Made by a program: the position numbers and the translations under genes. Positions 45,981 through 59,266 of a DNA stretch of 64,000 bases are shown piece after piece. The DNA lies in contig NZ_JACJQN010000001.1 in NCBI RefSeq assembly GCF_014696675.1, positions 248,001 to 312,000 on the forward strand, in the 5' to 3' direction. How positions within the stretch are numbered: position 1 is the first letter of the stretch; every line of letters starts with the position of its first letter. The DNA is from Phormidium tenue FACHB-1052. Its GTDB lineage: Bacteria; Cyanobacteriota; Cyanobacteriia; Phormidesmidales; Phormidesmidaceae. Under the pieces are notes generated by a model. The model did no database searches, was not told the origin of the DNA, and saw only the letters and a program-made list of their open reading frames with translations.

Positions 45981-45984
45981 TTAA
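45862..45984 (+). CDS. Possible small membrane peptide
   Basis: A 40-codon frame, starting MAFLFGEKMIFPSRLALLSG and continuing through a hydrophobic segment (GGLLLAVYWVCG) to a basic end. It would make a single-span membrane peptide. Its stop overlaps the convergent DUF202 gene by 4 bp. A second ATG (45886) is in frame. There is no clear ribosome binding site, so this may be chance in A+T-rich DNA. Confidence 0.22.
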   Translation: MAFLFGEKMIFPSRLALLSGGLLLAVYWVCGRALSSLSCR

Positions 45985-46382
45985 GGCACTAGGGGACTAA
46001 TTAAAATGCCTACAAAGGCGATCGCTCCTAGCCCAGCCAAAATGTAGGCCACGACCAGGGCTGGAGACCGCCGCGATCGGTAGACTAAGTCGTTGCGCTG
46101 AATACGCTGGAGCTGGTGGTTATGGTCGAGGGCTGCGCCCAACAGGGCAAACGTACCCAAGGCCACGAAGGATAGGCCTAAAACACGGGTTAACCGCAGG
46201 GGGTTTACCGCGTCCCCCAACGTTTGGTGAATGGCCGCCACAATGCGCTCGATCCCGAAGCCGAAGCCAATTAGGGCCAAGGCCGTGCGAATCCAGGCCA
46301 TTAGAGTGCGTTCTTCGGCGGCACGATTGCGCTCTTTGGCCAGTTCTGTGGCTGGGTTAGGCTCTGGGGTAGACACACTCAT
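45981..46382 (-). CDS. DUF202 (YidH-like) membrane protein 1
   Basis: A 133-aa membrane protein of the DUF202/YidH family with three hydrophobic helices. The conserved N-terminal block reads ELAKERNRAAEERTLMAWIR, followed by TALALIGFGFGIERIV. A central helix (LGLSFVALGTFALLGAALDH) and a C-terminal helix (VAYILAGLGAIAFVGILISP) follow. The family's function is not established; eukaryotic relatives carry the same domain in vacuolar transporter chaperones. This is one of three family members within 1.4 kb. It is divergent from the next one. Confidence 0.9.
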   Translation of the reverse strand: MSVSTPEPNPATELAKERNRAAEERTLMAWIRTALALIGFGFGIERIVAAIHQTLGDAVNPLRLTRVLGLSFVALGTFALLGAALDHNHQLQRIQRNDLVYRSRRSPALVVAYILAGLGAIAFVGILISPLVP

Positions 46383-46599
46383 GGCAGCACCAGCAAGGGT
46401 AGACAGGCAATCGGGCTAGCGAAACTATCCTACGATCAGGTTGGCTTACTCTTGAGCCTGAATCACTGTCTAGTGCTGTGGGGTTACCCTATCCCAGGGA
46501 TAAAATCAGCGGCGAGCATGATTCTGATGTTTGCACTGCCCGTTTCAAACGCTCAACCTTTCAACCTGCAACCGATCGCTCCCACTGGAAAATTCACCC

Positions 46600-47001
46600 A
46601 TGAGTGATGCTCCCCTACCTCCTCTGGTAAACACGACCAACGAGCTCGCTCGGGAACGCAATCGCGCCGCTGCCGAACGTACCCTCAACGCCTGGACTAG
46701 AATCTGCCTGGGCTTGATTGGGTTTGGAGTGGCTTACGAGCAGATTGCCCATAGCCTGCGGCGGCAAGCGGCATCGGTAGCTATCATAGCCAGCCCAAAC
46801 CCTGCCCTGGTGGGCCTGGGGTTTGTGAGCCTAGGTCTATTGCTGCTGGGGTTGGCACTGGTGCAGCATCGGCTGACTCTCAGCACCCTCGAGCAACGGG
46901 GCGACGTGCTGCTATCGATTAAAACGCTGAATCGGTGGGCGGTGGTCGCCATTGTGCTGGTAGCAATCGCAGGGTTAGGGGTATCGCTAGGGCTGCCATA
47001 G
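46600..47001 (+). CDS. DUF202 membrane protein 2
   Basis: Second DUF202 paralogue, 133 aa from ATG 46600; the frame extends upstream to 46531 without family similarity. The conserved block is NELARERNRAAAERTLNAWT, then RICLGLIGFGVAYEQI. A polar loop, a hydrophobic helix (GLGFVSLGLLLLGLALVQHR) and a C-terminal helix (WAVVAIVLVAIAGLGVSLGL) follow. It is divergent from the first paralogue and convergent with the third, whose stop is 7 bp away. The three are clearly different in sequence outside the N-terminal block, so the duplication is old. Confidence 0.9.
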   Translation: MSDAPLPPLVNTTNELARERNRAAAERTLNAWTRICLGLIGFGVAYEQIAHSLRRQAASVAIIASPNPALVGLGFVSLGLLLLGLALVQHRLTLSTLEQRGDVLLSIKTLNRWAVVAIVLVAIAGLGVSLGLP

Positions 47002-47008
47002 CCGTTTC

Positions 47009-47395
47009 TTACCCCAACAGGTCAAACCCCAGCCAGCCCAAGGCCAGAACACCGGTCGCAAAAATGGCTAACCCCGTAGCGGCTGCCAAAGAGTGACGGG
47101 GCTGGTATCGATAGTGGGGCGATCGCAGGCGAGCCCTTTCAGCCTGACAGTCGGCGATCGCAAACCCCAGGCTCAGCACCCCCAGACCGACATACACCAG
47201 GCTGAGGCCATAGGCCCACCCGTCAATATTACGGTCACCATGATGGGCACTAAGCGCCGCCAAGATTTGCTCTAGCCCCAAACCTAGACCAATCAGCGTA
47301 AGGCTGTTGCGCACAAAGGACAGCAGGGAGCGATCGGCGGCTAAGCGGTTGCGATCGCGGGCCAGATCATCCTGGGCCTGGTAACGGCTCGACAT
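47009..47395 (-). CDS. DUF202 membrane protein 3
   Basis: Third DUF202 paralogue, 128 aa. Its conserved block, DLARDRNRLAADRSLLSFVR followed by NSLTLIGLGLGLEQIL, is more diverged than in the other two: Asp replaces Glu twice, and Trp is replaced by Phe. Hydrophobic helices near LVYVGLGVLSLGFAIA and the C-terminus (GLAIFATGVLALGWLGFDLL) give the family topology. It starts 46 bp before the end of the LCP-family gene on the same strand, so it may be co-transcribed with that gene, which lies upstream. Confidence 0.88.
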   Translation of the reverse strand: MSSRYQAQDDLARDRNRLAADRSLLSFVRNSLTLIGLGLGLEQILAALSAHHGDRNIDGWAYGLSLVYVGLGVLSLGFAIADCQAERARLRSPHYRYQPRHSLAAATGLAIFATGVLALGWLGFDLLG

Positions 47396-51393: not shown

Positions 51394-51540
51394 ATGACCA
51401 CCCTAAAAACCTCGCAATCGACCTCTGCCTCCTCTTCAGCCCGCAACGCTTTAGAAAACCGAGAAGACTTCAGCCTCTGGGCTGAAGCCGTCAAGCAGCA
51501 GATGCTGGAGGCGCTGCAAAAGCGTCAGCGCACCAACTAG
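51394..51540 (+). CDS. Small conserved-looking protein, 48 aa
   Basis: A 48-codon frame from ATG 51394 to TAG 51538-51540. The sequence has a Ser/Thr-rich start (MTTLKTSQSTSASSSARNAL) followed by EDFSLWAEAVKQQMLEALQK, an amphipathic helix ending in KRQRTN. The helix pattern F-x-x-W-A-x-x-V-x-x-Q-M resembles short cyanobacterial proteins I have seen, though I cannot name a family. A strong terminator lies 120 bp downstream. The start lacks a clear ribosome binding site. Confidence 0.5.
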   Translation: MTTLKTSQSTSASSSARNALENREDFSLWAEAVKQQMLEALQKRQRTN

Positions 51541-51660
51541 GGTTATTTGCTGAGCCGATCGCTGAAGCTCCTGTTGCCCAGGTCAGGCCAACTGTTTGAG
51601 GCCGCGATCGCGCCAGTGTCTTCATCATTCAACCGCTTGAAAGCTAGCTGAATTCCATCA

Positions 51661-51709
51661 AAATCCCCTGGGGTGCCTCTATGAAGGCATTTAACCCAGG
51701 GGATTTTTT
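51661..51709. terminator. Strong bidirectional terminator
   Basis: AAATCCCCTGGG (51661-51672) is perfectly complementary to CCCAGGGGATTT (51695-51706). An inner TGCCT/AGGCA pair extends the stem and a T-run follows on the plus strand; the minus strand ends in TTTT. It separates the convergent small gene and EF-G-like gene and should stop both. Confidence 0.85.
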
Positions 51710-51724
51710 AGGTAGAGTCAGGGT

Positions 51725-53752
51725 TTAGCGATCGCTCCCCGTACTCGCCAAAATGCGCTCGGTGAGTTTCTCCGGCACCGGGTCGAGGTGGTCGTAGGTC
51801 CACTTGAAAAAGCCGACGCCCATGGTCAGCGACCGCAGTTCCAAGATCATGGTCTGCATTTCGGCCTGGGGCAGGTGGCCAGTGACCACATCCCAGCCGG
51901 GCCAGTCGGCTTTGGCCTCGTAGCCCAGAATTTGCCCGCGTCTGCCGGTGATCAGCTTCAGCACGTTGGAGGTATAGCTGCTAGGCACCGAAATTTCTAC
52001 CAGGTCAATGGGTTCGAGCAAGGTAGGGGTGCAAGCCGCCAAGCCCTCTTGCATAGCGATGCGGGCCGCCTGTTTAAAGGCGTTGTCGGAGCTGTCGACA
52101 TTGTGGTAGGAGCCGTTGGTTAGCGTCACCGCCACATCCACCACCGGAAAGCCTAGGGGGCCGTGGTCAAGGTATTCGCGCACGCCGGTCTCGACACTGG
52201 GGATGTACTGCTTGGGCACCACGCCGCCCACAATGGTATCGCTAAAGGCAAAGCCATCGCCGCGCGGCAGCGGCTGAATGGACAGGTAAACGTCACCAAA
52301 CTGACCATGGCCGCCGCTCTGGTGCTTATAGCGTCCGTGGACGGCTTCTTTGGCCTGACGGATAGTTTCTTTGTAGGGCACCTGGGGCAGGTGGGTGGAC
52401 ATGGGTAAGTTGTACTTGCGGCTGAGGCGATCGATCGCCAAATTTAAGTGCACATCCCCCTGCCCCCAGAGAATCACCTCGTGGGTATCGCCGTGCTGCT
52501 CCCAAAAGAGCGAGGGGTCTTCTTCGAGCAGCTTGGTGAGGGCGGCGCTGAGTTTAACCTCATCGCTGCGCTTGACGGAGGTGATGGCCAGGGCATAGAC
52601 CGGCTCAATGACTGGAGCTTTGGGCAGCAGAGTTTTAAGGGTGCCGGTTGTCAGGGTATCGCCGGTTTGAGCCCCCTCCAGGCGGGCAACGGCGACAATG
52701 CGACCAGCCTCTGCTCTGGTGAGGCTGTTTTGCTGGGTGCCCGTCAGGTCGTAGAGGCCGCCCATGCGATCGCCGTTCAGGCTATCCCCATCCTTGAGTT
52801 CGCCACACCAGACCCGCACCAGGGAGAGCTTGCCGCCCTGGGGGGTGTAATAGGTTTTGAGCACCTGGGCTAGAGTGTCGGTCTCGCAGGTGATGCCCCG
52901 CTTTTCGCAGGTGACATCTGGGGCCGGGGCTTCCTTCACCAGGGCATTGAGCAGGGGCCGCACGCCGTAGTCATTCAGGGCCACACCGATGAATACCGGA
53001 ACGATGAGGTCGGCTCCCAGCTCCATTCTCAGGTCACGGAAAATTTCCTCTTCGGGGGGCGCAATATCCTCCAGCAGTTCTTCTAATAGATGATCGTCAT
53101 AGTCAGCTAGGGCTTCCAGCATTTCAGCGCGGGCGATCTGTTCCTCGGCTTGCAGTGCGGCGGGCAGCGGCACGGGGTCAGCGGGAGCGCCGGGATGGTA
53201 GTGGAAGGCTTGTTCGGTAACGAGATCAATAAAGCCCACTAACTCGTGGTTTTGACGAATTGGGTACTGCTGGGGAATCACGGGTCGGGAAGAGATCTGA
53301 CGCAGGGCCGCCAGCACTTCAGCAAAGGTGCCGTTGGCGCGATCGAGCTTGTTGATCCAGATCAGGTGGGGAATTTCCCAGGTATCTAAAAATTGCAGCA
53401 GGGGCGAGAGGGTGAGCACTTTGTTGGGGTCGGCTTCGCAGACCACGATCGCCGCATCGACCCCCATCAGGGCATGGTTAGTTTCCTGCTGCAGCTCCAC
53501 CGAGCCGGGGCAATCGACAAACGTAAAACAAATGCCGCCGTACTGAGTACTGGCGGCATTGAGTTCTACGGTCATGTGGCGGGTGCGGGCCTCCGGGGAG
53601 CTATCGCCGAGGGTGTTGCCCTCATCGACGCTGCCCTTGCGAGTTGTGGCCCCAGTGACAGACATAATGCTCTCTAAAAGAGTTGTTTTGCCGCTGGAAT
53701 AGGTGCCGACCAGCGCTACATTACGTCGGCCTGAAAGGACGTTTTGAGCCAT
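51725..53752 (-). CDS. Elongation factor G-like translational GTPase, divergent G motifs
   Basis: EF-G-type GTPase of 675 aa from ATG 53752, which has AAGGAG six nt upstream. Domain I carries the P-loop GTYSSGKTT (16-24), NKLD and switch regions. Domain II to V follow, including LPMSTHLPQVPYKETIRQA, SGGHGQFGDVYLSIQPLPRG, PKQYIPSVETGVREYLDHGP and the C-terminal ribosome-contact region EISVPSSYTSNVLKLITGRR. Two GTPase motifs depart from canonical EF-G. The usual DxPGH is DCPGS (80-84), so the catalytic His is Ser, and RGIT is RHMT. It matches the EF-G-like paralogue family, whose role in cyanobacteria is unclear. It is not the main EF-G. Confidence 0.9.
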   Translation of the reverse strand: MAQNVLSGRRNVALVGTYSSGKTTLLESIMSVTGATTRKGSVDEGNTLGDSSPEARTRHMTVELNAASTQYGGICFTFVDCPGSVELQQETNHALMGVDAAIVVCEADPNKVLTLSPLLQFLDTWEIPHLIWINKLDRANGTFAEVLAALRQISSRPVIPQQYPIRQNHELVGFIDLVTEQAFHYHPGAPADPVPLPAALQAEEQIARAEMLEALADYDDHLLEELLEDIAPPEEEIFRDLRMELGADLIVPVFIGVALNDYGVRPLLNALVKEAPAPDVTCEKRGITCETDTLAQVLKTYYTPQGGKLSLVRVWCGELKDGDSLNGDRMGGLYDLTGTQQNSLTRAEAGRIVAVARLEGAQTGDTLTTGTLKTLLPKAPVIEPVYALAITSVKRSDEVKLSAALTKLLEEDPSLFWEQHGDTHEVILWGQGDVHLNLAIDRLSRKYNLPMSTHLPQVPYKETIRQAKEAVHGRYKHQSGGHGQFGDVYLSIQPLPRGDGFAFSDTIVGGVVPKQYIPSVETGVREYLDHGPLGFPVVDVAVTLTNGSYHNVDSSDNAFKQAARIAMQEGLAACTPTLLEPIDLVEISVPSSYTSNVLKLITGRRGQILGYEAKADWPGWDVVTGHLPQAEMQTMILELRSLTMGVGFFKWTYDHLDPVPEKLTERILASTGSDR

Positions 53753-53991
53753 AATAAACTCCTTGCCATGGTGCGATGGCATGTAGAGAAAAGCCTATAG
53801 CTTGAAGGCGTGACGAGCGTGATATGAAGTGACTCAGCTGTGTCTAACCCCAGATTAACGCGACCTTAACTCCCTGCTTGATCAGGTTCTAGAAAGTTCA
53901 CCTGTTGAAGTTTTGTGCCTAGTTTTGTCGATCTGTAACAGTAGATTCTTAGGGTTTAAGGTCAAGGGTCTAAGGCTGTTCTCTAAGCCTT

Positions 53992-56052
53992 TCACCCTGC
54001 CCCCGTCTCGCCATCCAACACCTGTCGCACTTTTTGGGCCAGCGTCGATGGGGTAAAGGGCTTTTGCAAAAAGGCTACGTCGGCCTTTAAAACGCCGTGG
54101 TGAATCACGGCATCGTCGGTGTAGCCAGAGAGAAACAACACCTTACAGTGGGGATGGGTGCGGGTCACCTGGGCAGCTAGTTCGCGCCCCCCCAGGTGGG
54201 GCATCACCACATCGGACATCAGCAGGTGAATGGGGTCGGGCTCATGCTCGACCAGGTGCAGAGCATCTTGGCCATTGGTAGCCTCTAAGACTCGATAGCC
54301 ACACCGCTGCAAAACATAAATTTCTAGGGCGCGCACGGCATCTTCATCTTCGACCACCAGGATGGTTTCAGTGCCCTGGGGCAGGGTAGACAATCGCCCC
54401 TGCGATCGCCCCTCAGGCACCGACTCCGCCACCAGCGGCAGGTAGATCTGAAACCTCGTTCCTTGGCCCACTGCACTCTCTACCGCGATGTAGCCCCCCG
54501 ACTGCTTGACAATGCCATGCACCGTGGCCAGCCCCAGGCCGGTGCCCTTACCCACGGGCTTGGTGGTAAAAAAGGGTTCAAACATTCTGGCCTGGGTCGC
54601 CGCGTCAATGCCGCAGCCGGTGTCGCTCACCGTGAGCAGCACGTAATTTCCGGGGCCCAAGCCAGCCAGTTGGCGGCATTGGGCTTCGTCTAGCTGCACA
54701 GTCTGGGTGGCCAGGGTCAGGGTGCCGCCCTGGGGCATGGCGTCGCGGGCGTTGACCGCCAGGTTCATCAACACCTGCTCGATTTGGCCGGGGTCAGCTT
54801 TAATGGGGCCGAGGGTAGGGCTCAGGGTGGTGACTAAAATAATGTCTTCACCGATCAGACGGCGCAGCATGGTTTCGGTATTGCTGACCACGGTGTTGAG
54901 GTTAAGCGCTTGGGGCGTTAGCACCTGCTGACGACTAAAGGCCAGCAGCTGACTGGTTAGCGCCCCAGCTCGTTCGCCCGCCTGGTAAATTTCACCCAGC
55001 AGCTGAGCGGCAGAGTCACTGGTGGGAATACGGCTCTGCAAAAGCTCGCTGTAGCCTTTAATCACCGTGATTAGGTTGTTAAAGTCGTGGGCAATCCCCC
55101 CCGCCAGCCGACCGATGGCCTCCATTTTTTGGGCTTGGCGAAACTGCTCTTCGAGCCGCTGCTGCTCGGTGACGTTGCGGGCCTGCACCAGGCAGGCGGG
55201 GCGATCGGCGAAGGTTAGACCGTAGGCGGAGAGTTCAACACTGATGATTTCACCAGTTTTCTTTTGGTGGCGCCAGACGCCATGACGTTCTAGGGATGAG
55301 CCTGACTGAGCCAACCGCTCCATTAGAGCGGGCACATCCTCGGGCGGATAAATAGCTTGCAGGGTCATGGTCAAAAACTCGTCGCGGCTGTAGCCATACT
55401 CAGCTACGGCGGCATCGTTGACGGCTAGGCAAGCTAGGGTTGTGCGATCGTAGACCAACACTGGGTCAGTGATGGCTTGAAATAGCTGGCGGTAGCGGGC
55501 TTCGCTGTCGCGCAGGGCGGCCTCAGTGCGCTTGCGTTCGGCAATTTCGGCCCCTAGCCGCCGGTTGGTTTGCTGTAGGCCCTCGATCTTTTTCTCCAGC
55601 TTGCGAAACAGGGCTTCGCTGTAGTCTTTGAGCAAAGCATTTTCTGCAAGCTGGGGCTGGCGCACCGAAGATTGGGCGGGGTCAAAGTGAGCCAGTAAAG
55701 CCGCGATGCTAACCATCAACGCCTCGGGTTCAGCAGGCTTGACCAAGAAGGCGTCGGCCCCCAGGTCAAAGGCCAGACGCTCATCTTTAATGTCGGTATA
55801 GGTGGCGGTGTAGACCATAAAGGGAATGGCCTTGAGCTGATCGTCGGCCTTCCACTGGCGCAGCAGAGTGTAGCCATCCATCACCGGCATCAGCAGGTCA
55901 GAGATGACCAAGATGGGGGGCTGCTGGCGAGCTTTAGCTAAGGCTTCCGCCCCGTGGCGGGCTTCTTCCACGGTGTAGCCATAGCCCTGAAGCAGCATGC
56001 GCAGCAGGTAGAGATTCTCAGCGTTATCGTCAACAACCAGCACTTGACTCAT
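53992..56052 (-). CDS. Hybrid histidine kinase: receiver-PAS-kinase-receiver
   Basis: A 686-aa cytosolic phosphorelay protein from ATG 56052. It has an N-terminal receiver ([20 protein letters not shown], phospho-Asp in [16 protein letters not shown], Lys in [10 protein letters not shown]). A coiled coil and PAS domain ([20 protein letters not shown]) come next. A HisKA-type domain with His in [16 protein letters not shown], and the HATPase motifs [15 protein letters not shown] and [20 protein letters not shown], follow. The C-terminal receiver has phospho-Asp in [16 protein letters not shown]. The ATG overlaps the stop of the response regulator (ATGA), indicating coupling. It is third in a kinase-receiver-hybrid operon. 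Confidence 0.93.
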
Positions 56053-56438
56053 AGGGCAACATCTCCTGGAGTGGCGAGGAAGAACCGCTCCACTTCGTCG
56101 CCGAATGATTCGGGGTCGATGGGTTTTTCGATGTAGCCTTCGGCTCCGGCGGCTAGGCATTTTTCGCGATCGCCCACCATGGCATAGGACGTAACCGCCA
56201 CAATCGGGATTGATTTGAGTTGGGGGTCGCTCTTGAGGGCATAGGCTACAGCATGGCCATCCATGCCGGGCAGCTGAATGTCGAGCAAAATTAGGTCGGG
56301 TTGGGCGATCGCCGCTAGTTCCAACCCCTGAAGACCGGTTTCTGCCTGAAGAATTTTATGGCCCCGCTGCTCCAGCAAAAACTGCACTAAGTAGCGGTTT
56401 TGGGGATTGTCTTCAATTAACAGAATGGTCTTTGTCAT
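56049..56438 (-). CDS. Single-domain response regulator
   Basis: A 129-aa receiver without output domain. Conserved residues are visible: acidic pocket in ILLIEDNPQNRYLVQFLLEQ, phospho-Asp in PDLILLDIQLPGMDGHAVAY, Thr in PIVAVTSYAM and Lys in GYIEKPIDPESF. Its start overlaps the stop of the upstream sensor kinase and its stop overlaps the start of the hybrid kinase, both as ATGA. It is therefore translated with both and probably shuttles phosphate between them, as in DivK/CheY-like relays. Confidence 0.94.
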   Translation of the reverse strand: MTKTILLIEDNPQNRYLVQFLLEQRGHKILQAETGLQGLELAAIAQPDLILLDIQLPGMDGHAVAYALKSDPQLKSIPIVAVTSYAMVGDREKCLAAGAEGYIEKPIDPESFGDEVERFFLATPGDVAL

Positions 56439-59266
56439 GGTGTCTCCGGTGCTTGCAGCGGCAGCGTCACGGTAAAGGTGCTGCCCATCCCCCAGGTGCT
56501 CTCGGCCTGAATGGTGCCCCCCATCAGCTCGACCAGGCGGCGACAGATCGCCAAGCCCAGCCCCGTACCCTCGTGGTTGCGGGTCAACCCCGAGTCGATC
56601 TGCCGAAAGGGTTGAAACAGAGCGGGCAGATCCTCCGCCTTGATGCCTATGCCCGTGTCAGAGACTCGCAGGCGCAGCGTCGCTGGGGCAGCCTCAGCTC
56701 TAGAGGGTTCATACAATTCTGCGGTCAGGGCGACGTTACCGCGATCGGTAAATTTAATGGCATTGCTCAGCAGATTGAGCAAGATCTGCTCAAACCGCCG
56801 CTGGTCAGTGATGGCTTCGCCCAGGGTGGGGGCTACCTCAACACGCAGGTCTAGCGCTTTAGCGACGGCCTGGGGCTGCACGATCGCCAGCACTTTAGCA
56901 ATCGACCGGGGCAGGTCAAAGGGCTCGCGGGCCACCTCTAACTGCCCAGCTTCAATTTTAGAAATATCGAGCACATCGTTGACCAGGGCCAGCAGGTGGC
57001 GAGCGCTGGTGCGCACCATGGCGAGCTGCTTGCTCTGCTCGGCGTTGAGTGGCCCGGCCAAGCCCTGCAAGATAATGCCGGTGAAGCCAATGATGGAGTT
57101 GAGCGGGGTGCGCAGCTCGTGACTCATGGTGGCGAGGAAGGCCGATTTGATGCGATCGGCGGCCTCAGCCTGGTGACGCTTCTCGCGCTCGGCCTCGGCC
57201 TGGCGGCGGGCGGTCATGTCGGTGCCAATGCTGAGAATTTCAACTACGTTGCCGATGGCGTCAAGCTCAATACGGTTGGTCCAGGCGACCCAGACGCGCT
57301 GGCCGTCGTGGCGCATATTTTCGTTGATGTTTTGCTCAAAGGCGCTGGGGTTGGCGCAGATGGCATCCATGAGCTGTTGCAGGTCGCGCCCACCACTTTC
57401 CATCGGCGGCACGATGGTTTCCATCACGTGGCGGCCAATGATTTCGGCTTCGCTATAGCCAAAGAAGCGCTGGCCATACTCATTGAGAAAGGTAATGCAG
57501 CCATCGGAGTTCCACCGCAGAATGATGCTGTTGGCATGCTCGACCAGTTCGCGATACTTGCGCTCGCTCTCGGCCAACCGGGTCTCGGCTCGCCGCCGAG
57601 CCGAAATATCAATGCCGACCCCCACCAGGCACCAGGTGTTCTCAAACTGAACCCGCTGCCCGGTAAAAAAATAGGGGGTGGTGGTACCGTCTTTGGCAAC
57701 AAAGTCTGCCTCCATGGAGGACTCACCGTCGGTAAACACCTGGGCGATGCGCTGCTCTAATCTGGCTCTGTCGTCACCGGCAAAAAAGTGAATAGGGTGC
57801 ATGTGGGCGATCTCATCGGCAGAGTAGCCAGAGACGCGCTCAAAATTTTGGTTCCAGCGCAGGAAGTGACCCTCGGTGTCGTAGAAGTACAGAATGCCGG
57901 GCATGCTCTCGATCATGATTTCGGTAAAGCGCATTTCGTCGCGCACAGCCTGCTCGGCCTGGCGGCGGGCCTCGTCACGGGCAAAGGCGCTAAGGGCAAA
58001 GGCGAGATCGCCAGCGGCCTCTTCGAGCAGGGCGATCTCTTTGTCGTGGAAAATGTTGGGCTGCTCGGCGTAGACGTTGAGCACCCCAACGATCTCCCCT
58101 TCGAGGATGATTGGGAAGTGGGCCGAGGCCCGAAACCGGCCCTCGGCGATCGCCCCGTGCCCAGCACGGGTGGCTGGGTCGGTGAGAGCGTCATTGCAAA
58201 TATAGGGCTGGTGCGATCGCAACACCATGGCGGCCAACTCTCCCGACAGATCCGCCGCCGGTTTTTGGCCCATCGCCCCTGGGTTGGACAGTAGACCTGC
58301 GCTGTCGCCCACCACCGCCACGGGCGTTAGTCCGTCGGGTTCTACCCCACGCCAGCCGATCCAGGCGAGACAAAAGCCGCCGTCATTCACCAGCGCCTGA
58401 CAGACTTTTTGAAACAGCTCGTCGCGGTCGGCAGTCCAGACAATGGCCTGGTTGATCTGGCTGAGGGCCGCGTAGAGCCGGGACATGCGGGCAATCTCGC
58501 GATCGCGCTCCTTCAGCGCCGTAATGTCGCGCACAATGGCCGAGGTGCCGATAATATTGCCCCGACTGTCTTTCAGCGGTGACGCAGCAATGCACACGTA
58601 GATGAGCTGCCCAGCTTTGGTATGGCGCTGGGTCTCCAGCCGCTCAATGCGCTCGCCCCGCTGAATTTTCTCCAGAATTAGGCTGGCTTCGCTCAGCTTG
58701 TCTACTGGATACAGCCGCGCCACGGGGGTGCCGAGCATGTCGGCGGCGGAGTAGCCGTAGATTGCCTCTGCTCCGGCATTCCAGCTCGTGACGATGCCGT
58801 TGAGGTCGGTGCTAATAATGGCATCAGAGGTCGATTCGACGATCGCCGCCATGCGATCGCGATAGGTCTGGGCCGCGTTGCGATCGCTCAAATCGCGAAT
58901 CAAGCCCAGCAGAGTGCCATCGGGCAGGAGCGTGGCGATCACCTCCGCCGTAAACACCGTGCCGTCCTTGCGGCGAAACTGCCATTCGCGGTGGTGATCG
59001 CGGCGAGTGTGAATTTGGCCCAGGGCCGAGTCAATGTGGGGCGCTTCGGTCTGCACCACAATATCTGAAGCATGCAGCCCAACGAACTCATCGCGGCTGT
59101 AGCCAAACATCTCACAGGCGCTGGCATTGACATCAACGTAGTAGCTCTCGGCGTCGGCCAGCACAATGCCCAACTGAGCATGGTCGAACAGCGTGCGGTA
59201 GCGGGCTTCACAGGCCTGTAGCTGCTGGGCTAGGGCGGCCATAGACGAGGAGGGGGACTGCGACAT
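56435..59266 (-). CDS. Multi-PAS/GAF sensor histidine kinase
   Basis: A 943-aa cytosolic sensor kinase. In order: PAS 1 (CEARYRTLFDHAQLGIVLAD), PAS 2 (IVESTSDAIISTDLNGIVTS), a GAF domain (HFPIILEGEIVGVLNVYAEQ), PAS 3 (EIMIESMPGILYFYDTEGHF), PAS 4 (ELVEHANSIILRWNSDGCIT), then HisKA with His in FLATMSHELRTPLNSIIGFT. The HATPase has LLNLLSNAIKFTDRG and GTGLGLAICRRLVELMGG. There is no membrane helix, so it senses intracellular redox, light or ligand signals through PAS/GAF cofactors. Cofactor residues cannot be judged by eye, and no bilin-binding Cys motif stood out in the GAF. It is first in the relay operon. Confidence 0.93.
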   Translation of the reverse strand: MSQSPSSSMAALAQQLQACEARYRTLFDHAQLGIVLADAESYYVDVNASACEMFGYSRDEFVGLHASDIVVQTEAPHIDSALGQIHTRRDHHREWQFRRKDGTVFTAEVIATLLPDGTLLGLIRDLSDRNAAQTYRDRMAAIVESTSDAIISTDLNGIVTSWNAGAEAIYGYSAADMLGTPVARLYPVDKLSEASLILEKIQRGERIERLETQRHTKAGQLIYVCIAASPLKDSRGNIIGTSAIVRDITALKERDREIARMSRLYAALSQINQAIVWTADRDELFQKVCQALVNDGGFCLAWIGWRGVEPDGLTPVAVVGDSAGLLSNPGAMGQKPAADLSGELAAMVLRSHQPYICNDALTDPATRAGHGAIAEGRFRASAHFPIILEGEIVGVLNVYAEQPNIFHDKEIALLEEAAGDLAFALSAFARDEARRQAEQAVRDEMRFTEIMIESMPGILYFYDTEGHFLRWNQNFERVSGYSADEIAHMHPIHFFAGDDRARLEQRIAQVFTDGESSMEADFVAKDGTTTPYFFTGQRVQFENTWCLVGVGIDISARRRAETRLAESERKYRELVEHANSIILRWNSDGCITFLNEYGQRFFGYSEAEIIGRHVMETIVPPMESGGRDLQQLMDAICANPSAFEQNINENMRHDGQRVWVAWTNRIELDAIGNVVEILSIGTDMTARRQAEAEREKRHQAEAADRIKSAFLATMSHELRTPLNSIIGFTGIILQGLAGPLNAEQSKQLAMVRTSARHLLALVNDVLDISKIEAGQLEVAREPFDLPRSIAKVLAIVQPQAVAKALDLRVEVAPTLGEAITDQRRFEQILLNLLSNAIKFTDRGNVALTAELYEPSRAEAAPATLRLRVSDTGIGIKAEDLPALFQPFRQIDSGLTRNHEGTGLGLAICRRLVELMGGTIQAESTWGMGSTFTVTLPLQAPETP

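Follow-up and report, generated by a model that had tools for sequence, protein, structure and literature searches.

The locus and its surroundings

The window, i.e. the whole stretch of 64,000 nucleotides analysed here, encodes on its minus strand a paralogue of elongation factor G (EF-G) of the EFG II type. The gene and its flanking signals are as follows.

51725–53752, minus strand: coding sequence, including the stop codon, of the EFG II-type EF-G paralogue, 675 residues (NF009379, 1028.5 bits)
53759–53764, minus strand: AAGGAG, Shine-Dalgarno-like, 6 nt ahead of the ATG at 53752 (read from the sequence)
51655–51712, minus strand: terminator-like hairpin, 13–70 nt past the stop codon (−30.8 kcal/mol, z −4.86)

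The 675-residue frame is unbroken on the minus strand, and the plus-strand reading of the same span contains stops. The mechanically called open reading frame (ORF) starts 30 bases further upstream, with an ATG at 53782 rather than at 53752. The strong hairpin 3′ of the stop codon, together with the spacing, suggests that the gene is probably monocistronic; the U-run of the hairpin lies mostly within the stem, and the hairpin was absent from the output of one separate scan.

The minus-strand region upstream of the EFG II gene (53992–59266) holds a hybrid histidine kinase with receiver domains, followed by two ORFs judged by eye, an overlapping one that resembles a receiver and one that resembles a PAS kinase. 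A 48-residue ORF on the plus strand (51394–51540), convergent to the EFG II gene, lies between it and a downstream gene of 285 residues; tblastn matches to this ORF were found in 8 of 133 loci, all from the same genus (50–98% identity), and a Pfam search with it gave no match. Three small neighbouring genes on alternating strands (45981–47395) each match DUF202. Of the 133 loci, 11 had a match to the upstream histidine kinase (seven from the same genus and four weak, distant matches) and eight, all from the same genus, had one to the 285-residue gene; these counts are underestimates because the flanks span only 1.5–2.5 kb and are shorter at contig ends. Conserved neighbours or an operon were considered as a functional clue, and no functional link is drawn from them.

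Family membership, distribution and fold

Judged by its sequence, the window protein belongs to EFG II in its cyanobacterial form and is an auxiliary EF-G whose five-domain body is intact. All five EF-G domains score above the Pfam gathering cut-offs, in agreement with a preliminary description of this DNA. The best NCBIfam match is NF009379 (PRK12740.1-3), with 1028.5 bits against a cut-off of 513 that is not discriminating by itself, as the canonical EF-G L002 of the same genome scores 529.2. The protein is also above the cut-offs of NF009891 (752.5) and NF009381 (583.0). The canonical EF-G model TIGR00484 gives 418.6 bits, below its cut-off of 659.4, and the DxPGH and RGIT motifs are likewise missing; the models for Bacteroides EF-G2 (NF058620, 334.6 bits, cut-off 1000) and for tetracycline ribosomal protection proteins (NF012153, 245.6 bits, cut-off 775) also stay below threshold. 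None of 115 relatives reaches the NF058620 cut-off, and the best match to this model in the window's genome is the canonical L002 gene, not the EFG II gene.

In a sample of 244 genomes spread evenly over the phylum, 63 contain a protein scoring above 950 bits, the next score being 581, and all 63 belong to the window's own class. By our own count, none of the 23 genomes of a small-genome family (f20) has an EFG II gene. Within the genus, a match is present in 24 of 26 genomes, including that of the window (two copies are partial). The gene is therefore, on these sequence counts, accessory and widespread. A plasmid search matched 1263 records, all at less than 60% identity, and the 30 of the 1263 that were listed are EF-G, tetracycline protection proteins or without annotation.

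The EFG II subfamily was described in 2011 by Margus, Remm and Tenson, and its loss of RGITI is already in print (PMC3150367). The same paper gives Gly16 and Leu25 of the P-loop as marks of EFG II, G2 as relaxed (R/HxMS/GV in alphaproteobacteria and cyanobacteria) and G3 as a conserved DxPG; no discussion of the loss of the histidine was found in its main text. Both marks, whose numbering is that of 1WDT as read off the alignment, are present in the window protein and in the 63 cyanobacterial homologues (Gly16 in 63, Leu25 in 62), and the canonical L002 and L003 of the same genome have Ala and Thr at these positions. G2 of the window protein reads RHMTV, so that RGITI is lost, and Thr stands at the Ser/Gly position of the published pattern. 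Additionally, the acidic L7/L12-contact region of the G′ domain is kept among the 63 (Asp219 and Asp220 in all, Glu224 in 60 and Glu228 in 62). The published alphaproteobacterial and cyanobacterial sub-subgroup (PMC3150367; UniRef50_Q55421) thus shares Gly16, Leu25 and a closely similar G2 with the window protein; it too is an extra EF-G beside a canonical one, and no structural difference was found.

From the 156 sequences gathered, 64 were used for a quick tree, computed without bootstrap, which split 60 EFG II-type rows from four EF-G I rows with a support of 100. In it, the window protein groups with two cyanobacterial sequences (support 100) within a cyanobacterial group (support 90). The AlphaFold2 model of the window protein, based on a 49-row alignment, has a mean pLDDT of 91.2 and a pTM of 0.87. 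Its top Foldseek match is EF-G2 of Thermus thermophilus (1wdt, E 3e-70). Ribosome-bound canonical EF-Gs head the VIA-align list (Z 49.8), with 1wdt in eighth place (Z 44.0), and phmmer gives 376 bits for canonical T. thermophilus EF-G versus 349 for 1wdt. Every structural comparison returns the EF-G fold, and the rank order of the matches is partly set by conformation; closeness to the EF-G2 structures is therefore not supported by all measures.

The GTPase site and its conservation

The nucleotide-binding motifs and the domain IV tip elements map to the following positions.

53684–53707, minus strand: G1 (P-loop) GTYSSGKT, with Lys22 and Thr23 kept, the canonical Asp replaced by Ser19 and the gate Ile/Val by Tyr18
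53570–53581, minus strand: G2 (switch I) RHMT in place of RGIT (sequence and alignment)
53501–53515, minus strand: G3 (switch II) DCPGS, with Ser84 (codon 53501–53503) at the canonical His position
53342–53353, minus strand: G4 NKLD, the guanine-specificity motif, retained (sequence and alignment)
52289–52333, minus strand: domain IV loop 1 RYKHQSGGHGQFGDV, with both tip glycines present (sequence and alignment)
52088–52114, minus strand: domain IV GSYHNVDSS, with the tip residue His550 (sequence and alignment)

The preliminary description had pointed out both DCPGS and RHMT, and its reading of the protein as a paralogue of EF-G in which the GTPase site is altered is upheld. L002 and L003 have DTPGH, RGIT and the P-loop Asp, all absent from the window protein. 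These two EF-Gs are 34% and 31% identical to the window protein, respectively, and have the five-domain length, NKxD and the domain IV tip in common with it; L002 is taken as the str-operon copy because it adjoins an EF-Tu-like frame. The description had also called DxPGH invariant; this holds for the canonical EF-Gs examined, whereas EFG II departs from it.

Lys22 and Thr23 of the P-loop and Asp80 are unchanged in all 63 cyanobacterial homologues, and Asn and Lys of NKxD are equally constant (its Asp is kept in 57). By contrast with these kept positions, the P-loop Asp is replaced in all 63 (by Leu, Ser, Gly and others), and Tyr18 for the gate Ile, Ser84 for His and Glu for Asp86 are each fixed. 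In switch I, Gly59 is gone in 60 of the 63, the gate residue Ile60 is Met in 61, and position 61, the Mg ligand, is Ser in 49, Thr in eight (as in the window protein) and Gly in six. The six loci with Gly are L046, L065, L066, L068, L069 and L070. The same change to Gly is found in 16 of the 55 non-cyanobacterial loci among the best 80 of 587 relatives, which are the nearest kin. The gate and monovalent-cation residues were assigned from published work (PMC4342817, PMC4532990) and placed here by alignment; an altered monovalent-cation site in EFG II had been noted in PMC4342817.

Conservation is highest in domain IV, where 44% of positions are invariant among the 63 cyanobacteria as compared with 19% for the G domain (with approximate domain borders), and the tip residues Gly480, Gly481 and His550 are kept in all 118 proteins tabulated (the 63 and the 55 from the best 80 of 587). 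The sequence thus shows preserved nucleotide-binding motifs, L7/L12-contact region and domain IV tip beside a rewired ribosome-triggered catalytic site. Among the cyanobacterial EFG II proteins, Cys81 is present in 62 and Cys105 in all 63. A redox-sensitive cysteine is known in cyanobacterial EF-G. A redox role was considered, but the canonical cysteine aligns one column away (106).

The alignment that the preliminary description had proposed as a check on whether Ser is fixed in cyanobacteria gave a clear answer for the sample, with Ser84 in 63 of 63 homologues. It is likewise present in all 25 cyanobacterial loci among the best 80 of 587 relatives and in all 24 genus copies (two partial), sets that overlap and partly comprise the same genomes. 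The 55 non-cyanobacterial loci from the best 80 have Ser (44), Ala (6) or Phe (5), and none has His. Ser84 is encoded by TCN in 54 and by AGY in nine of the 63; because a switch between these codon families needs two base changes, the serine is probably held by selection, rather than by shortage of time. At least five changes are needed at residue 84 on a tree built without the switch II columns. L072 and L073, two more distant EFG II-like proteins that come from other classes of the phylum and both have NF009381 as their best NCBIfam match, carry His and Ser, respectively, at this position.

The median dN/dS within the genus is 0.082, indicating purifying selection (215 of 231 pairs, after removal of those with dS outside 0.05–1.5; the two partial copies were omitted). 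The weakest constraint is on domain II (0.147). A pseudogene or a sequencing error was ruled out by this low ratio and by the constancy of Ser84 in the genus. Separately, NKxD is replaced by NGFD in L072 (1–2031) and by NGVE in L073 (1–2049), and their guanine specificity may therefore be altered; an Archangium EFG II-like protein (L148, 2501–4453) has NVLE for NKxD and DAPGA in switch II.

Comparison with characterised EF-Gs and proposed role

Three relatives without the switch II histidine are available for comparison. T. thermophilus EF-G2 (1WDT), an EFG II member of the same fold, is 35% identical to the window protein and has Tyr (DAPGY) in place of Ser84. It is reported to have ribosome-dependent GTPase activity and low elongation activity, and a higher intrinsic GTPase activity is described for it (PMC3150367, citing Connell 2007). 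Mycobacterium smegmatis EF-G2 (9K0Z), whose ribosome complex has been solved, differs from the window protein in DTPGY, with Tyr rather than Ser, and in QQRSV in G2; it is reported to lack GTPase activity and to be inactive in elongation and recycling.

Bacteroides thetaiotaomicron EF-G2, known from a ribosome-bound structure (8DMF/7UVP), has the same DCPGS in switch II as the window protein, but is only 28% identical to it, with YGYSV in G2 and a length of 718 residues; the chain common to 7UVP and 8DMF is labelled TetQ in the sequence file, and the title of 8DMF names the ribosome-bound B. thetaiotaomicron EF-G2. The sequence match to 7UVP is interrupted after chain residue 511, where the first of its two segments stops, and the NF058620 matches listed in relatives end at about 507–512 of 717. 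These breaks suggest an insert in domain IV of the Bacteroides protein. The window protein is 43 residues shorter than the 718-residue chain and, aligned with its own genome's EF-Gs in domain IV, shows one gap column each way and no insert. Han and colleagues (2023) reportedly attributed the missing GTPase activity of Bacteroides EF-G2 to a unique region of 26 residues. The shorter chain and the lack of a domain IV insert suggest that this region is probably absent from the window protein, which shares Ser84, so that the Bacteroides analogy is incomplete. Papers citing Han et al. 2023 report that Bacteroides EF-G2 translocates without GTP hydrolysis and supports GTP-independent translation.

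In E. coli EF-G, the H91A substitution is reported to lower hydrolysis from 202/s to 28/s (about sevenfold) and phosphate (Pi) release from 28/s to 0.32/s (about 90-fold), and older reports cited in the same paper describe the mutant as completely or significantly impaired (PMC4532990). The statement of the preliminary description that the histidine is required for ribosome-triggered hydrolysis holds only in part: H91A retains hydrolysis at 28/s, and the His-less Thermus EF-G2 is reported to be an active GTPase. Its suggestion of slow action is plausible as slow or absent ribosome-stimulated hydrolysis, given that the His-less M. smegmatis and Bacteroides EF-G2s are reported to be without GTPase activity. 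The open-licence literature searched yielded no paper describing the activity of an EFG II member from cyanobacteria. We take sll0830 to be the Synechocystis member of EFG II. Its expression is reported to fall modestly under iron depletion and to rise about 1.6-fold in a regulator mutant. Other literature used here comprises PMC6989115, PMC12775393, PMC10994844, PMC8446442, PMC10294740, PMC9067457, PMC3516471 and PMC4057619.

The reading that we favour, with a probability of about one half, is that the window protein is an auxiliary EFG II translocase. It would bind GTP and the ribosome and support slow translocation, with GTP hydrolysis and/or Pi release on the ribosome weak or absent, and would in consequence leave the ribosome slowly. 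In the rewired site, the P-loop Asp and the switch I Gly are lost, the gate Ile is changed to Tyr and the switch II His to Ser. As a back-up translocase, or one of low GTP cost, the protein would most plausibly serve when the cell is short of energy; that this happens in darkness or starvation is conjectured from the Bacteroides EF-G2 analogy. Speaking for this reading are the EFG II assignment by NF009379, P-loop marks and tree, the constancy of Ser84 under two codon families, the loss of the switch I Mg ligand to Gly in six of the 63 cyanobacteria and 16 of the 55 others, the unchanged domain IV tip, the top Foldseek rank of 1wdt and the DCPGS shared with Bacteroides EF-G2, for which hydrolysis-free translocation is reported. 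It is weakened by the reported ribosome-dependent GTPase of the equally His-less Thermus EF-G2, by the reported inactivity of the GTPase-deficient M. smegmatis EF-G2 in elongation and recycling, by the switch I Thr that the window protein itself keeps, by the switch II His kept in the remoter L072, by the probable absence of the Bacteroides 26-residue region, and by the phmmer and VIA-align ranks of canonical EF-Gs above 1wdt.

The main rival is a slow but working GTPase, in which Ser84, Tyr18 and Glu86 form an alternative catalytic site in a conventional GTP-hydrolysing back-up translocase. The Thermus enzyme, the residual hydrolysis of E. coli H91A and the fixation of all three residues in the sampled cyanobacteria speak for it; the switch I Thr/Ser is, however, changed to Gly in 22 of the 118 relatives (55 of them from the best 80 of 587), which is hard to reconcile with required hydrolysis there, and two other His-less EF-G2s are reported to be GTPase-dead, and we consider this rival possible, if somewhat unlikely. 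A ribosome-binding factor that does not translocate, but stays on the ribosome in its GTP form without turnover for protection, pausing or hibernation, would resemble M. smegmatis EF-G2, which is reported to be unable to take part in elongation or recycling and yet was solved in complex with the 70S ribosome (9k0z). The intact translocation tip and the strong conservation of domain IV make such a role doubtful in the window protein.

Recycling, which the preliminary description had offered as one role, is not favoured as the sole role. Some EF-G2s, of mitochondria and Borrelia, are reported as recycling factors, but the mitochondrial proteins derive from the spdEFG groups and not from EFG II (PMC4342817), and all 118 proteins retain the loop-1 glycine that is substituted in EF-G2mt. 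Moreover, ribosome disassembly is described as requiring Pi release (PMC4532990), a step that the missing His would impair. A dedicated recycling factor acting with RRF is accordingly very improbable.

A broader form of the favoured reading, that cyanobacterial and alphaproteobacterial EFG II are translocases no longer dependent on GTP hydrolysis, is put forward tentatively and as rather unlikely. It rests on the loss of the His in all 118 relatives tabulated, of the monovalent-cation site in most of them and of the switch I Mg ligand in the 22 noted above.

The EFG II subfamily and the G2 change are already known, and the interest here lies in the DCPGS common to Bacteroides EF-G2. According to the literature, it is still under debate which translocation events need EF-G to hydrolyse GTP, and EFG II proteins under purifying selection with Ser for the switch II His, in tractable cyanobacteria, are natural variants for this question. 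As the His-less relatives are reported to differ, being GTPase-active in Thermus, inactive in Mycobacterium and capable of GTP-independent translation in Bacteroides, residue 84 alone does not predict activity. Because it has the serine of Bacteroides EF-G2 and probably lacks its insert, the cyanobacterial protein would help to tell these two causes apart. If the broader reading is true, phototrophs would keep slow protein synthesis of low energy cost in the dark, and the behaviour of Bacteroides EF-G2 would be more widespread.
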